A DNA stretch of 64,000 nt, from contig NZ_FNJD01000002.1 of assembly GCF_900103185.1 (NCBI RefSeq), positions 186,001 through 250,000 on the forward strand. The letters run 5' to 3'. Position numbers and translations under genes: made by a program. Positions within the stretch are counted from its first letter, which is position 1. Every line of letters begins with the position of its first letter. This DNA is from Sulfitobacter litoralis. GTDB taxonomy: Bacteria; Pseudomonadota; Alphaproteobacteria; Rhodobacterales; Rhodobacteraceae. Of the stretch, positions 6,538 through 57,594 are shown in pieces. The notes beneath the pieces are model-generated. The model was not told where the DNA came from and ran no database searches. It was given only the letters and a program-made list of their open reading frames with translations.

Positions 6538-6864
6538 TTAGCTGGCCTGCTGGCGATCGATATAAGCGCGCATTTCTTCCGCCTCGTGGCGTGCATCACG
6601 TAGCCCGTCCATCGCGGCACGCAATTCTGCTTCGGTCTGGTTAAGCTGGTTGGTCAGCTCGGCCTCGCGCTGTTGCAGATAGGTGATTGCCTGATCGCGG
6701 GTTTCTTCCGCTTCGTGCAATTCCTGGCTCATCCGATCAAGCTGCGCGACATCGTCTGCGGCAACGCGGGTGAACCGGTGCAGTAGCCAGTTGGCGAACC
6801 ATCCAAGACAGAAGGCGACGAATAGGATAATCGCTGTCGCGATGACAAATTCGGTTCTGCTCAT
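6538..6864 (-). CDS. Membrane-anchored coiled-coil protein downstream of OmpA-like gene
   Basis: A 108-residue protein of unknown function. An N-terminal hydrophobic helix (FVIATAIILFVAFCLGWFANWLL, residues 5-27) is followed by a charged, heptad-like stretch rich in Glu, Gln and Ala up to the end, which should form a coiled coil. It starts one base after the stop of the OmpA-like gene, with AAGG 12 nt upstream, so the two form one transcript. A longer in-frame extension into the upstream gene exists but has no ribosome site. A scaffold or partner role for the OmpA protein is only suggested by the tight linkage. Confidence 0.7.
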   Translation of the reverse strand: MSRTEFVIATAIILFVAFCLGWFANWLLHRFTRVAADDVAQLDRMSQELHEAEETRDQAITYLQQREAELTNQLNQTEAELRAAMDGLRDARHEAEEMRAYIDRQQAS

Positions 6865-6865
6865 G

Positions 6866-8773
6866 TTAGTTGCCTTCTTGGGTCTGGTCGGATGGTGTGC
6901 CTGTATCGCCTGTATCGCCTGTATCCGCGCCGTTTTCCAGCGCTGTTTCATCAGAATCCGCAGTCGTTTGTTCACTGATCAATTTAAATTCGATGCGGCG
7001 GTTCGCTTCGCGGCCATCCTCGCTATCGTTAGAGGCGACAGGGGAGTCTTCGCCATAGCCTTTGGCAACGAATGAACCGGTAATCACGCGACGGGCACGC
7101 AGTTCGTTTAACACCGATTGCGCGCGCGACTGGCTGAGCGCAAGGTTCATTTCCTCGCGGCCCTGACTGTCGGTATAGCCCTGCACCTCAAGTGCAATGT
7201 CGCGGCAATCCTTCAGGATTTCAGCGATCTTATCCATCGTCCCAAGGGCCGACGAATCAATCGTGGCACTGCCGGGTTCAAAGTTAATCTTGCCTTGGGC
7301 GACGACCTTGGCGATCTCGGCTTCGCATTCCTGTGGCGTGGGCAGTCCCAAAACGGGGTCCAGCTTTTCCTGGTAGGTAACTTTGACCTCGTAGTCCTTG
7401 CCTTCGCCCAGTTTGCCCGCCAGCAGGGTTGCAATTTGTGTGCTGGCATCAGGGTTTCCGGTGTTGCCGGTGACGCTGACACTGTCGGGGGTGGCGATCA
7501 CGGTGCCGTTCGCCAGCTTGGACAGCGCATCCAGTGAGGACAGGACCCGGGTCGGCCAATCGGCTGGGAGGTCGTCGACGATGCGCGCGGCGGTATAGAC
7601 CTTGTCAGAGCCAAAGCTTGCCTTGGCGTAGCTGTCGGCCAGTTCGCGCAGCGCGTCGTCGCTGAGGCGACCGCGCAGCTGCACCTGACCTTCGGGCGAC
7701 AAGGTGGCGACGAATTCAGGCGGTCCCGCATCGGGGTCTACGGCCTTGGGCAGGCTTGCTTTCAGCGCGAAGACGTCTGGCAGGGCGTTCTCCAGCTCTC
7801 CGACTTCACGGTCGAACACGGCGCGTTCGGTGCCTTCGGCGGCAATCAGGCTAATGTCGGCATCGGCAAAGCTGACCGATCCGCCGCCGATTTTGGCAAG
7901 GCTGCCGATCGCTTTCTCTACCGCTTCGGCCCAACGCGGGCTTGGGACACCAAGCCCCACGGTGCAACGGGCAGAACCGGGGGCCCCGGCTGCGACGGCT
8001 GCTTTGAGGATGCGGGCGCTGGCCTGTTCGGTGTCCGCGCTGCAGGCGTCAAACCCGATGCTGCCTTCCTCGATCTGGAAGCGTAGCGTGAAGGGCGTGA
8101 TCACCGGGCGGGGGGCAGCAATATCCAGTGTGACCACGAGCCCCGAAGGGGCCGCGCGTTTGAGCTGGTTTTCAAGACGCGCCTTGGCCTCTGCGCTGTC
8201 GGAGATGGCGGTGATCGACACACGACCTGCCGCGGCAGAGACTTTGGCGCGGGGCAGCTTTCCGATCGCCGAGATGGCAAATCCAAAGGCGTCCTCCCAG
8301 CCGTCGGGGGCCGGGTAGTTCGCGGATTCCAGCAGGTCAGCCACATGGTCCTGACCCGCGATGGATTTGAAACGGTCAATGGCAGCGTCGCGGTCCGTGG
8401 TGGTGGGAATCAGCCCGATGATGGACACGCCAGAATCATTGCGCAGAATCTCGACCGAGAATTTTGGCGCGGCGATGGCGGCCTGCGCCGTCACCTCCAT
8501 CTGGTCAATGACACGCGCAGCATCAACGATCGTGCCGGCCGTGCTGAGCGCATTAAAGCGGGCGACCTCGTTCGGTGCCGTGCCCGACAGCGTGACCTGA
8601 AGCCCGTCTGCCTCAACCTCCGCCCATGTCATCTCTTTTACATCAAGGGCATCGCGAACGCCGATCTCGGAGTTCTCCTCGATCAATGTGACTGAAAAGC
8701 TTGCCGCCACCAAAGAGACGGATGCTGCAGCGGTAAAGGTCATCGCGATGATCAGAAGTACAGATAGGCGCAT
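6866..8773 (-). CDS. OmpA family protein with BON-like repeats
   Basis: A 635-residue envelope protein. The start at 8773 gives a signal-anchor or signal peptide (MRLSVLLIIAMTFTAAASVS). The middle part, roughly residues 40-460, is a series of modules that look like BON domains (for example VTLSGTAPNEVARFNAL and VQLRGRLSDDALRELA), typical of lipid- or envelope-binding proteins. A C-terminal OmpA/MotB peptidoglycan-binding domain spans about 495-599 (INFEPGSATIDSSALG, VQGYTDSQGREEMNLALSQ, NRRIEFKL). An acidic tail with DTGDTGDTG follows. The probable role is linking outer or inner membrane to peptidoglycan. It is cotranscribed with the coiled-coil gene at 6538. Confidence 0.85.
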   Translation of the reverse strand: MRLSVLLIIAMTFTAAASVSLVAASFSVTLIEENSEIGVRDALDVKEMTWAEVEADGLQVTLSGTAPNEVARFNALSTAGTIVDAARVIDQMEVTAQAAIAAPKFSVEILRNDSGVSIIGLIPTTTDRDAAIDRFKSIAGQDHVADLLESANYPAPDGWEDAFGFAISAIGKLPRAKVSAAAGRVSITAISDSAEAKARLENQLKRAAPSGLVVTLDIAAPRPVITPFTLRFQIEEGSIGFDACSADTEQASARILKAAVAAGAPGSARCTVGLGVPSPRWAEAVEKAIGSLAKIGGGSVSFADADISLIAAEGTERAVFDREVGELENALPDVFALKASLPKAVDPDAGPPEFVATLSPEGQVQLRGRLSDDALRELADSYAKASFGSDKVYTAARIVDDLPADWPTRVLSSLDALSKLANGTVIATPDSVSVTGNTGNPDASTQIATLLAGKLGEGKDYEVKVTYQEKLDPVLGLPTPQECEAEIAKVVAQGKINFEPGSATIDSSALGTMDKIAEILKDCRDIALEVQGYTDSQGREEMNLALSQSRAQSVLNELRARRVITGSFVAKGYGEDSPVASNDSEDGREANRRIEFKLISEQTTADSDETALENGADTGDTGDTGTPSDQTQEGN

Positions 8774-8836
8774 AAACTCGTTTCTGAGACCGTTGATATT
8801 GGAGGCTTTGATACGCCTGCGGGGGCAGGGGTGCAA

Positions 8837-54035: not shown

Positions 54036-54566
54036 ATGGCGATGTGGGTGTTCGGTTACGGCAGCTTATTGTGGAAACCGGGGTTTGACGTGGCGGAAAG
54101 CGTGATCGGGCGGTTGCCCGGGTACGCGCGGTCGTTCTGCATGCGGTCGATCCACCATCGCGGATCGGTTGACCGTCCGGGGCTGGTGCTGGCGCTGGAT
54201 GCCGATACAGGCACGGCCTGCGATGGTATGGCGCTGCGTGTTGCGCCGGGGACCGAAGATGCCACGTTAACCTATTTGCGCGAACGCGAGCTGGTGTCAT
54301 CGGCCTATGTTGAAAAGACGCTTGAGGTACAGCTAGAGGATGGCCGCACCGTCGAGGCATTGGTCTATGTGATCGATGCCGCCCACGAGCAATATTGCGG
54401 CGGCTTGCCGCTGGAGGAGCAGGCGCAGATCATCTCGGGCGCGGTAGGCGGGATGGGGCCGAATACCGAATATCTGTTTAACACGGCATCCCATTTGACC
54501 CAGATCGGGCTGCATGATCCGTCGCTTGCATGGCTTCATGACCGTGTGAAGTCTCTTGGCGCATAA
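54036..54566 (+). CDS. Glutathione-specific gamma-glutamylcyclotransferase (ChaC-like)
   Basis: A 176-residue ChaC-family enzyme that splits glutathione to 5-oxoproline and Cys-Gly. The family signature VFGYGSLLWKPGFD at residues 4-17 forms the gamma-glutamyl pocket, and the catalytic Glu lies in the central YLRERELVSSAY region. CGGLPLEEQAQIISGA and GPNTEYLFNTASHL are typical of ChaC. Divergent from the DUF2125 gene. It complements gshA and gloB in glutathione metabolism. Confidence 0.9.
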   Translation: MAMWVFGYGSLLWKPGFDVAESVIGRLPGYARSFCMRSIHHRGSVDRPGLVLALDADTGTACDGMALRVAPGTEDATLTYLRERELVSSAYVEKTLEVQLEDGRTVEALVYVIDAAHEQYCGGLPLEEQAQIISGAVGGMGPNTEYLFNTASHLTQIGLHDPSLAWLHDRVKSLGA

Positions 54567-54640: not shown

Positions 54641-55843
54641 ATGGCGCAGTCAGACCGCGAATCCAAACCACAGTTTTCCCAGCCGGTGCGGCAGATCACG
54701 CTGATGCTGATCGCCCTTGCGCTCACCGGCATCGGGGCTTTTCTGGCGCTGCCAAGCGTTTTGCCTATTTTTGCAGCAAATCCCTATCTGAATGGCGTGA
54801 TTATCGTCGTCTTCTTTATCGGCGTTATCGCCTGTTTTTATCAGGTGTTGCAGCTGATCGGCTCTGTCAGGTGGATTGAAAACTTTGCCTCAAACGAGCC
54901 GAATGCAGATGCCGTAGCACCGCAGCTTTTGGCCCCGCTTGCATCGTTGTTGCGCACACGCGGCGCGCGCATGCAGGTGAACGCAACCTCGACCCGCTCT
55001 ATTCTGGATTCCGTGGCAACCCGCATCGACGAAGCACGCGAGATTACACGTTATATCGTCAACATGCTGATTTTTCTCGGTCTTTTGGGTACTTTCTATG
55101 GGCTTGCCACGACTGTTCCGGCAGTTGTGGAAACGATCCGCAGCCTCGCGCCCCAAGAAGGCGACGGCAGCACCGATATGTTCGCGCGGCTGATGACCGG
55201 ACTGGAATCGCAGCTTGGCGGCATGGGTGTGGCCTTTGGGTCCTCCCTTTTGGGGCTGGCGGGGTCGCTGGTTGTCGGTCTGCTTGAACTCTTTGCAGGC
55301 CATGGCCAGAACCGCTTTTATCAGGAGTTGGAAGACTGGCTCAGCTCGATCACCCGTGTTGGCTTTTCCTCGGGCGAGGACGGCGCGTCGGATCAGGTTG
55401 CTGTGGCCGGCGTGCTGGATCATATGGCAGAACAAATGGACAGCCTGCGCCAGCTGATCGGACAATCCACCGAGAGCCAGACTGTGCTCAACCGCGAGAT
55501 CGGCGCGCTTGCCACCACGATGGAGGAGCTGTCGGCACGGGCCGCCCAAACCGATACAGCGGCGGAAAGTCTGGACCGGATCGCCAAGGGGCAAGAACGC
55601 ATGGTCGCCGTACTTGAAGGGCAGGGCGACCATGAACGGGCGGATGCGGAAAGCCGGATGCGCCTGCGGTCGATCGATGTACAGATGCTGCGTATCCTCG
55701 AGGAAATATCTGCGGGGCGGCAGGAAACCATGGCTGAATTGCGCAAGGATATTTCGTTGCTGGCCAAGGCGCTTTCCGCGCCACGCGGTGCTGAACCCCG
55801 CCGTTTGCGCACCCCTGACCGTTCCGACACCGAGGAAAGCTGA
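54641..55843 (+). CDS. MotA/TolQ/ExbB-like proton channel protein
   Basis: A 400-residue membrane protein of the ExbB/TolQ/MotA type. Four hydrophobic segments are seen: about 19-45, 49-72, 137-160 (IVNMLIFLGLLGTFYGLATT, the conserved channel helix) and 192-218 (GVAFGSSLLGLAGSLVVGLL). A cytoplasmic loop between helices 2 and 3 and a C-terminal helical tail from about 245 to 400 with coiled-coil character follow. It forms a pair with the MotB-like gene 3 nt downstream, as stator units do. It is longer than ExbB because of the tail. Confidence 0.8.
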   Translation: MAQSDRESKPQFSQPVRQITLMLIALALTGIGAFLALPSVLPIFAANPYLNGVIIVVFFIGVIACFYQVLQLIGSVRWIENFASNEPNADAVAPQLLAPLASLLRTRGARMQVNATSTRSILDSVATRIDEAREITRYIVNMLIFLGLLGTFYGLATTVPAVVETIRSLAPQEGDGSTDMFARLMTGLESQLGGMGVAFGSSLLGLAGSLVVGLLELFAGHGQNRFYQELEDWLSSITRVGFSSGEDGASDQVAVAGVLDHMAEQMDSLRQLIGQSTESQTVLNREIGALATTMEELSARAAQTDTAAESLDRIAKGQERMVAVLEGQGDHERADAESRMRLRSIDVQMLRILEEISAGRQETMAELRKDISLLAKALSAPRGAEPRRLRTPDRSDTEES

Positions 55844-55845
55844 GG

Positions 55846-57594
55846 ATGGCGCTTTCCCGACGTACAGGGTCACGCTTTCAGGGTTCGATCTGGCCCGGGT
55901 TCGTGGATGCGATGACCGGCCTGTTGCTGGTTTTGATGTTCGTACTGACCATCTTCATGGTGTTGCAAGCCGTGCAGACACAACGCATCAATGGGCAGGA
56001 AAGCGAACTGAATTCTCTGTCGGGTGAAGTCGCTGCATTGGCCCAAGCACTTGGAATGGAACGACAAAATGCTGCAGATCTTGAAACCCAATTGGGGTCG
56101 CTCACCACGTCGCTGACGGCGGCACGTGATAAGGCGGCAGAACAGGCGGCGATGATTGCGTCGTTGTCGGCTACACGCGATGCCCAAGCCGTGCAGTTGA
56201 ACGCCGCCGAGGCCAAGATAACCGGTTTCGAGACACAGGTCGCTAACTTGTTGTCCCAACGTGATGCAGCCGTCGCGCGTGGTGAAACGCTCGAGGCACG
56301 TCAGAAAGAATTGTTGAGCGCGCAAGACGCGTTGAACCTCGCGTTGACGCAGGCCCGATCCGAAACAGATGCACAGGCTGAAGCTGCGCGGCTTGCGGCG
56401 GCCCGTCGCGATGCTTTGACAGCGCTTGTCGATGACCTGCGCGCCAAGAACCAAGAAACCCAGGCCGCATTGCAAAGTGCTGCCGACGCAAATGCCGCAG
56501 CGCTTTCAGACGCCGAAGCTGCCCGTCTGGCCGAAGCCGCCGCGGCAGAGCAATTGCGTGAAAAGCTGCAAAACGCGGATGCAGAGCTGACAGCGATGAC
56601 TTTGGCGCTTGAGACTCAGCGCCAAGAGGCAGAGGATACGCTGACCTTGCTGGCTGCCGCACGTGCCGCCAAGGAAACCCTGGACGCTGAGCTTGCTGCC
56701 GCCCTTACAGAGACAGAAACCCTTGAGGCCGCGCAGGCAGACCGTGCCGCGCTGCGTGCCAAGCTGGCCGACGCGCTTGCCGCAAAGTTGGCGGCAGAAA
56801 GCCGGGCCGAGGACACGCGTTCGGATGCGGAAAAACGAGCAGCCTTGCTGAATGCGGCGCGGGCCGAGCTGGCGCAGGAGGAGGCCGCCACCGCTGCGGC
56901 ACAGCGTCAGACAGAGCTATTGAACCAGCAGGTTGCAGCGCTGCGTGGCCAACTGGGGGAACTCCAGTCTTTACTGGATGATGCCGTCGCACGGGATGCC
57001 GTGAAAGAAGTGCAACTGCAATCGCTTGGCTCCGATCTGAACACCGCGCTCGCGCGCGTCGCCGCCGAAGAACGTCGCCGCGCCGAGCTAGAGGCGGCAG
57101 AGCGTGCGCGGCTTGAGGCGGAGACCAAGAACCTTGAACAATACCGCTCCGAGTTCTTCGGGCGGTTGAGAGAGCTTTTAGGGAATCAAGAGGGGGTTCG
57201 CATCGAGGGTGACCGGTTCGTCTTCTCTTCCGAAGTGCTGTTCCCACCCGGTGCCGCGACGCTCTCAGCCGAGGGCCGAAAAGAAATTGCCAAAGTCGCC
57301 GGTATTTTACGCAATATTGCGGCCGACATTCCGCCTGAAATCGACTGGGTCATTCGCGTTGACGGGCATACGGATAACCAGCCTTTGTCGGGCCTGGGTG
57401 CCTTCGCCGACAATTGGGAGCTGAGCCAAGCGCGGGCCTTGTCAGTGGTTAAGTATATGATCAGCTTCCTCGGTATCGCGCCAGAGCGCCTGGCGGCAAA
57501 TGGATTTGGCCAGTACCAACCAGTTGCCAACGGGAAAACGGAAACCGCCCGCGCCCAGAACCGCAGGATCGAATTGAAGCTGACCGAAAAGTAA
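55846..57594 (+). CDS. MotB-like protein with long coiled coil and OmpA domain
   Basis: A 582-residue partner of the channel gene. The N-terminal SIWPGFVDAMTGLLLVLMFVLT (about 14-36) is a MotB/ExbD-type transmembrane helix with a conserved Asp before it. Residues about 45-440 are an Ala/Glu/Arg-rich coiled coil. The C-terminus (about 457-582) is an OmpA/MotB peptidoglycan-binding domain (RFVFSSEVLFPPGAATLSAE, RVDGHTDNQPLSG, RAQNRRIELKL). With N-terminus inside, the coiled coil must lie in the periplasm. A proton-driven, wall-anchored motor is inferred. Confidence 0.82.
   Translation: MALSRRTGSRFQGSIWPGFVDAMTGLLLVLMFVLTIFMVLQAVQTQRINGQESELNSLSGEVAALAQALGMERQNAADLETQLGSLTTSLTAARDKAAEQAAMIASLSATRDAQAVQLNAAEAKITGFETQVANLLSQRDAAVARGETLEARQKELLSAQDALNLALTQARSETDAQAEAARLAAARRDALTALVDDLRAKNQETQAALQSAADANAAALSDAEAARLAEAAAAEQLREKLQNADAELTAMTLALETQRQEAEDTLTLLAAARAAKETLDAELAAALTETETLEAAQADRAALRAKLADALAAKLAAESRAEDTRSDAEKRAALLNAARAELAQEEAATAAAQRQTELLNQQVAALRGQLGELQSLLDDAVARDAVKEVQLQSLGSDLNTALARVAAEERRRAELEAAERARLEAETKNLEQYRSEFFGRLRELLGNQEGVRIEGDRFVFSSEVLFPPGAATLSAEGRKEIAKVAGILRNIAADIPPEIDWVIRVDGHTDNQPLSGLGAFADNWELSQARALSVVKYMISFLGIAPERLAANGFGQYQPVANGKTETARAQNRRIELKLTEK

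Follow-up and report, generated by a model that had tools for sequence, protein, structure and literature searches.

A putative alphaproteobacterial envelope motor with a long periplasmic coiled coil that changes length mostly in seven-residue steps

Two adjacent genes of Sulfitobacter litoralis, here called A and B, lie on the plus strand of a 64,000-nucleotide stretch of DNA (contig NZ_FNJD01000002.1, positions 186,001 to 250,000; hereafter the window, to which the coordinates refer). An earlier sequence-only reading of the window had proposed both open reading frames (ORFs), and both were found where it placed them, with two bases between them. Gene A (54641..55843) encodes a 400 aa membrane protein of the MotA/ExbB/TolQ/ZorA type, assigned from the ORF, Foldseek, PADLOC and matches to PF01618 in relatives, with a membrane core (residues 16–242, 54686..55366) and a cytoplasmic tail (residues 243–400, 55367..55840). 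Gene B (55846..57594) encodes a MotB-type protein of 582 aa. Its architecture consists of an N-terminal single hydrophobic helix (approximately residues 17–42, 55894..55971, with the start taken from the AlphaFold2 model and the end placed by eye), a coiled coil of 391 residues (residues 43–433, 55972..57144) and an OmpA-like wall-binding domain (residues 465–573, 57238..57564; Pfam PF00691, 1.5e-16). The pair was confirmed and is distinct from the Tol, Ton, flagellar and Zorya systems, yet it is widespread, and B belongs to a family that already has a name. The heptad-stepped, register-keeping rod that the coil probably forms is new here, as is a third gene, C, described below.

B is a full member of the family PRK09039, scoring 813 bits against the NCBIfam model NF006542 (PRK09039.1-1, 'peptidoglycan -binding protein'; sibling families NF006543–NF006546), for which the curated cut-off is 388. 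The aspartate D21 (codon 55906..55908) lies in the WPGFVD motif and was invariant in 20 of 20 sequences from the class and in all 26 of a more closely related set; by analogy with MotB, ExbD and ZorB, it presumably binds ions. In a structure search, the C-terminal domain folded like the C-domains of MotB and OmpA. Judged by title and the start of the abstract, none of the matches listed from the open-licence literature, supplements excluded, was a study of PRK09039 or of the A/B pair. The matches to PRK09039 as a search term concerned, as listed, only a phage genome and blue light, and no open-licence paper on periplasmic coil length was found. Two leads, the Rgs proteins of Sinorhizobium (PMC7327166) and the CenKR target RSP_1880 (PMC9275681), were set aside, with no tie to the pair in the excerpts of these papers.

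The AlphaFold2 model of A (mean predicted local distance difference test score, pLDDT, 64) contained helices at residues 16–46, 48–83, 95–107, 115–168 and 177–242, four of which we read as membrane helices, followed by a low-confidence tail of short helices. Fold matches in Foldseek were to TolQ, ExbB and ZorA, with probabilities of up to 1.00, and to MotA (0.90), and the PADLOC ZorA1 model matched residues 132–315 (1.6e-11). The motif LGLLGTFxGL around T151, together with S202, was invariant in 23 of 23 A sequences from the class; these two residues may be the equivalents of the ExbB threonines, in a polar Thr/Ser ring. In a sample of 16 chosen genomes, PF01618 was above its cut-off at 8 of the 12 loci with A, at three of these eight only with neighbouring matches added. 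The end of the cytoplasmic tail is conserved in many members. A coupling of tail length to coil length was set aside, as the link was weak (Spearman 0.27, P=0.03, 65 loci, uncorrected for relatedness). At one locus outside the class (L177 in genome G536, 6763–8574), the A protein measures 243 aa and all but lacks the cytoplasmic tail, and the B encoded after it has 355 aa.

The sequence-only reading had given B a very long coiled coil, and this description stands. The 391 residues contain no proline (27% are alanine), and a short folded domain in place of the coil is excluded. Coil length ranged from 272 to 954 residues in 75 orthologues, the shortest belonging to a record titled Sphingomonadales (L125), and from 114 to 440 residues elsewhere in the class. 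Proline was absent from all 33,599 residues of 68 orthologous coils (from 68 of the 75 B-bearing loci; seven sequences lay outside the coil-end pattern used) and occurred twice in 9,163 residues of 39 other class sequences. Leu, Ile, Val, Met and Phe recurred with a period of 3.5 to an extent well above chance, with a mean power of 4.7 in the orthologous coils vs 0.17 (maximum 0.21) in 50 shuffles and 3.4 in the coil of the window's B.

Coil length was found to change predominantly in whole heptads. For this comparison, 74 of 76 B sequences (two were dropped) were cut at eight conserved blocks, and each inter-block length was compared with the commonest one; block profiles were used for the cutting, strict motifs having fitted just 10 of the 76 sequences. 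In four of the five segments that varied, 143 of 147 differences were multiples of seven (segments a–b, 26 of 26; b–c, 38 of 38; c–e, 42 of 46; h–i, 37 of 37), while segments e–f and g–h were constant across the 74 sequences. The largest c–e insertions, in three species, measured 266, 427 and 525 residues, all multiples of seven. The same test applied to controls gave 5 of 64 for the variable cytoplasmic tail of A, 0 of 29 for another part of A, 5 of 45 for DUF2125, 0 of 30 for the M23 peptidase and 0 of 2 for a methyltransferase; the third part of A never varied in length. Among class members elsewhere (39 of 41 sequences, L174 and L175 having been dropped), 26 of 39 sequences and 19 of 27 distinct lengths shared one common remainder modulo seven, and most of the remaining lengths would fit heptads plus eleven-residue units. 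Tandem Repeats Finder, applied to six long genes, detected few short arrays, some built of 21- or 84-base units, and none in L095. Recent 21-base slippage was therefore rejected as the sole cause of the seven-residue steps, the arrays being too few and too short, but it may be part of the cause.

Charge pairing between the chains was consistent with a parallel dimer. In the fitted heptad register, which was learned from the very sequences it was applied to, the two core positions were 62% and 42% Leu, Ile, Val, Met or Phe, and positions e and g were 61–63% charged or amide. Pairs of the g–e' type (i to i+5) were attractive in 621 cases and repulsive in 192 (shuffled net −32, standard deviation 28; z 14.3, a score inflated, like the others here, by the relatedness of the sequences, so that same-lag pairs and further segments and genes were used as controls). 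Same-lag control pairs gave z values of 0.9 and 1.7. Pairs at i+3 and i+4 were also attractive (z 3.3 to 11.6), as would be expected of salt bridges within any helix. The g–e' excess was approximately 3:1 or more in every quarter of the coil and was present in 70 of 75 coils; coils longer than 600 residues had 195 attractive and 56 repulsive pairs, and the window's B alone had eight and two. Because lengths step in sevens and charges pair in the g–e' manner, the sequences suggest that the coil is probably a continuous, parallel, in-register dimer that exceeds the height of the periplasm and does not fold back.

A coiled coil rises 0.1485 nm per residue, so that a straight rod would measure approximately 58 nm in the window's B and 40–142 nm in the 75 coils. 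In tomography of Yersinia, as reported in excerpts of PMC3728920, membrane centres were approximately 33 nm apart (30–36 nm), an average within Gram-negative values. A rod of some 58 nm therefore could not stand upright in such a space and would have to be tilted, bent or laid along the wall.

The same motor might instead carry a coil folded up, down and up again to match the height of the periplasm. The AlphaFold2 monomer of B is drawn in this way, with three helices of 155, 117 and 145 residues separated by breaks at residues 172–176 and 294–300. The fitted register shifts at residue 290, close to the second break, and segment f–g varied outside heptads (22 of 69 differences were multiples of seven). 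However, both breaks had pLDDT values below 50 in a model with a predicted template modelling score (pTM) of 0.34, and the register runs unbroken through residues 172–176, contradicting the first hairpin; the modelled hairpins were rejected on these grounds. Furthermore, pairing of the parallel-dimer type occurred in every quarter, although it was less specific in the last, where the same-lag control b–g was also attractive (116 to 49). The insertions of 266, 427 and 525 residues in c–e, moreover, were not accompanied by matching growth in the preceding segments. Folding back is thus unlikely. The sequence-only reading had allowed a coil that either folds back or spans an unusual distance; the latter option, as a continuous parallel dimer, is favoured by the data. 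Two further observations sit uneasily with this favoured reading. The four exceptions in c–e, the window's own B among them, are of 75 residues (64+11), and shuffled coils also yielded long fitted heptad runs, with a median of 170 vs 313 for the real ones.

The pair is widespread in Alphaproteobacteria, core in its genus, set in a fixed housekeeping neighbourhood and kept in several genomes of 0.7–1.4 Mb. A was detected in 35 of 36 same-genus genomes (its own included) and in 13 of 24 more distant relatives; B was detected in 246 of 385 genomes of the class (E 1e-20 or better). In a sample of 398 genomes from the phylum, the A profile matched 95, eight of them outside the class. Twelve genomes of 0.7–1.4 Mb were picked for carrying B, other small genomes of the class being without it; A was present in 10 of the 12, and all 12 held a further strong PF01618 gene. 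In one 1.1 Mb genome (G351:C3:4614-6342), the neighbour of A, encoded on the other strand, strongly matches PF01618 (TolQ-like). The expectation that the pair would prove an isolated oddity was not borne out.

Gene order was compared over 80 loci from named records, nearly all Rhodobacterales by title and some broken by contig ends; the closest named locus was that of Sulfitobacter marinus, with an A 86% identical. Genes found at these loci were ChaC (78 loci), B (75), DUF2125 (65), ClpA (61) and M23 (44). B lay directly 3' of A, on the same strand and within 30 bases, at all 75 loci with both, and at 77 of its 78 loci ChaC lay upstream of A, at most 300 bases away and on the strand of A. In the window, the ChaC-type gene (54036..54566, plus strand; Pfam PF04752), linked to A by synteny only, is accompanied by genes identified by Pfam as HisC-type aminotransferase, TyrA-type dehydrogenase, DUF2125 and M23 peptidase; others are presumably ClpA-like, GloB-like and methyltransferase-like. 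The Pfam-identified neighbours are of housekeeping types, which agrees with the earlier statement that no flagellar, Tol or Ton genes flank the pair. Far from the pair, on the minus strand (6866–8836), the window also encodes a protein of 656 aa, OmpA-like at its end and apparently unlike B in its N-terminal part. Core status, synteny and retention in small genomes make the pair look like a housekeeping part and not part of a defence island.

Outside Rhodobacterales, gene C was found directly upstream of A at 8 of 13 loci by clustering, with L030 and, weakly, L039 added by profile, and at 17 of 20 further loci chosen from B matches in the class for room on the contig. The encoded protein, presumably exported, begins with a sequence resembling a signal peptide and continues through a variable middle, often rich in proline, to an OmpA-like end that lacks the usual motifs and that we read from its sequence as degenerate. 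EF-P was nearby at 7 of the 13 loci and an inositol phosphatase at five. Gene C adjoined A at none of the 80 named loci, with one weak distant match (L100), and matches better than 1e-20 occurred in none of 36 same-genus genomes vs 12 of 24 more distant ones; eight of these 12 genomes had supplied sequences for the model, whereas G037, G039, G051 and G056 had not. In G039 (L172, 6334–7257) and G037 (L173, 4974–6038), gene C follows EF-P and inositol-phosphatase genes. The A profile found no match in these two genomes, so that C may act without the motor. C is likely to be a periplasmic partner of the motor outside Rhodobacterales.

The sequence-only reading had matched a channel of the MotA/ExbB type with a partner of the MotB type, and the data support this pairing as separate from the other such systems of the genome. 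Three further PF01618 genes lie elsewhere; we take them to represent a ybgC-tolQ-tolR-tolA-like cluster (C21), an exbB-exbD-tonB-like cluster and a MotA-like gene (C38). With these presumed genes elsewhere and housekeeping neighbours at this locus, membership of the Tol, Ton or flagellar systems was rejected. For TolQR, the pair lies outside the tol operon, the presumed Tol-like cluster being at C21; for flagellar MotAB, there is no flagellar neighbourhood and a separate MotA-like protein is encoded at C38. The pair is no known part of the Tol, Ton or flagellar machinery.

A relative of Zorya, with a motor that serves phage defence, was also considered, the sequence-only reading having noted a resemblance to ZorAB without ZorC, ZorD or ZorE. 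ZorA is among the fold matches of A, and PADLOC gave partial matches, the ZorA1 match in A cited above and a ZorB3 match confined to the OmpA part of B (7e-22). The single NCBIfam ZorA model to give a signal for A, however, scored 14.3 bits where its cut-off asks for 500, far from a full-length ZorA, and no Zor family, ZorC, ZorD and ZorE included, matched any of the eight flanking proteins checked. The only defence-model matches among these eight were to the ClpA-like protein, which we attribute to shared ATPase domains. Membership of Zorya was rejected, in keeping with the earlier remark, and a role in phage defence is very improbable for a pair with core status in its genus, conserved synteny and a place in several small genomes.

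Taken together, channel motifs, an invariant aspartate, a wall-binding domain, linkage of A and B, core status in the genus and the marks of a parallel-dimer coil point towards a motor. We consider it about an even chance that A and B form an ion-driven pentamer:dimer motor of the inner membrane, engaged in envelope housekeeping, with the continuous two-stranded rod as its wall leash or torsion shaft; its function and any rotation are inferred. By analogy with MotAB, TolQR and ZorAB, as described in excerpts of PMC9389320, PMC12505986, PMC11890865 and PMC12204202, five A subunits would surround two B subunits, and ion flow at D21 would turn A around the wall-anchored B pair. The anchoring of B to the wall suggests that A is the moving part. 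The cytoplasmic tails of A might then pass the motion to a cytoplasmic partner that probably acts in the growth of the wall or in division, while the rod, tilted or bent along the wall, would serve as an extended leash or as a torsion shaft. Selection would preserve the register of the coil and not its length, and with the register preserved the two B chains would remain paired all the way between membrane helix and anchor, whatever the length. A bolder version, which we hold only tentatively, is that this is a class-wide envelope motor whose register-locked, length-free rod, at 40–142 nm as much as several periplasm heights long, runs along the wall, carries twist or tension sideways and acts tens of nanometres away.

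The same parts could form a tether or tension sensor and not a rotary motor, with A relaying wall strain from the rod to a cytoplasmic partner and doing little ion-driven work. A coil of free length and fixed pairing suits a leash, and the tail of A is long, with its conserved end. The invariance of D21, T151 and S202 is, however, what would be expected if ion flow matters, and we regard this reading as unlikely.

Several observations weigh against an ion-driven housekeeping motor. PF01618 did not match A of the window itself (P0001); the best Foldseek E value for A was 0.012, with none below 0.001, from a low-confidence model; and hhalign of the A profile against the genome's single TolQ-like and MotA-like sequences gave probabilities of 13% and 0.6%, too weak to be of use. 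The two genes are non-adjacent, on different contigs, in G138 and G040; G041 has A and no B match at 1e-20, and some genomes, among them the two small ones without A (G164 and G386), have B alone. In the phylum sample, one genome of the same family (G570) and nine or more members of family f13 had no match to the A profile; the motor is therefore dispensable somewhere. No functional data on the pair were found in the open-licence literature without supplements, and screen data may exist.

Many Alphaproteobacteria seem to have, over and above Tol, Ton and flagella, an additional motor of the envelope, one that is core in some lineages. The coil amounts to a natural experiment, in which length has evolved several-fold, with the register mostly kept, in a compartment too low for straight rods of such length to stand. 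With the pair, the third gene and edits of whole heptads, both the motor role and the layout of the rod become directly testable.

Among known systems, TolQR and ExbBD share with the pair the LGLLGT-type motif and, by weak matches, the predicted fold of A, but B here ends in an OmpA domain, and the loci presumed to be Tol- and Ton-like lie elsewhere. Flagellar MotAB and PomAB share a single-helix B with an aspartate, an OmpA-type wall anchor and the fold of the B C-domain, whereas the present B has a coil of hundreds of residues and the locus has no flagellar neighbours, a MotA-like gene being located elsewhere. ZorAB, as described in excerpts of PMC11890865, resembles the pair in having a channel with a cytoplasmic tail and a MotB-type partner with an aspartate and a wall-binding domain, and ZorA is among the fold matches. 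The pair differs from it in having no Zor match among the eight flanking proteins, in being a core gene set in a fixed place, and in carrying its length as a long coil in B and not as a bundled tail of A.

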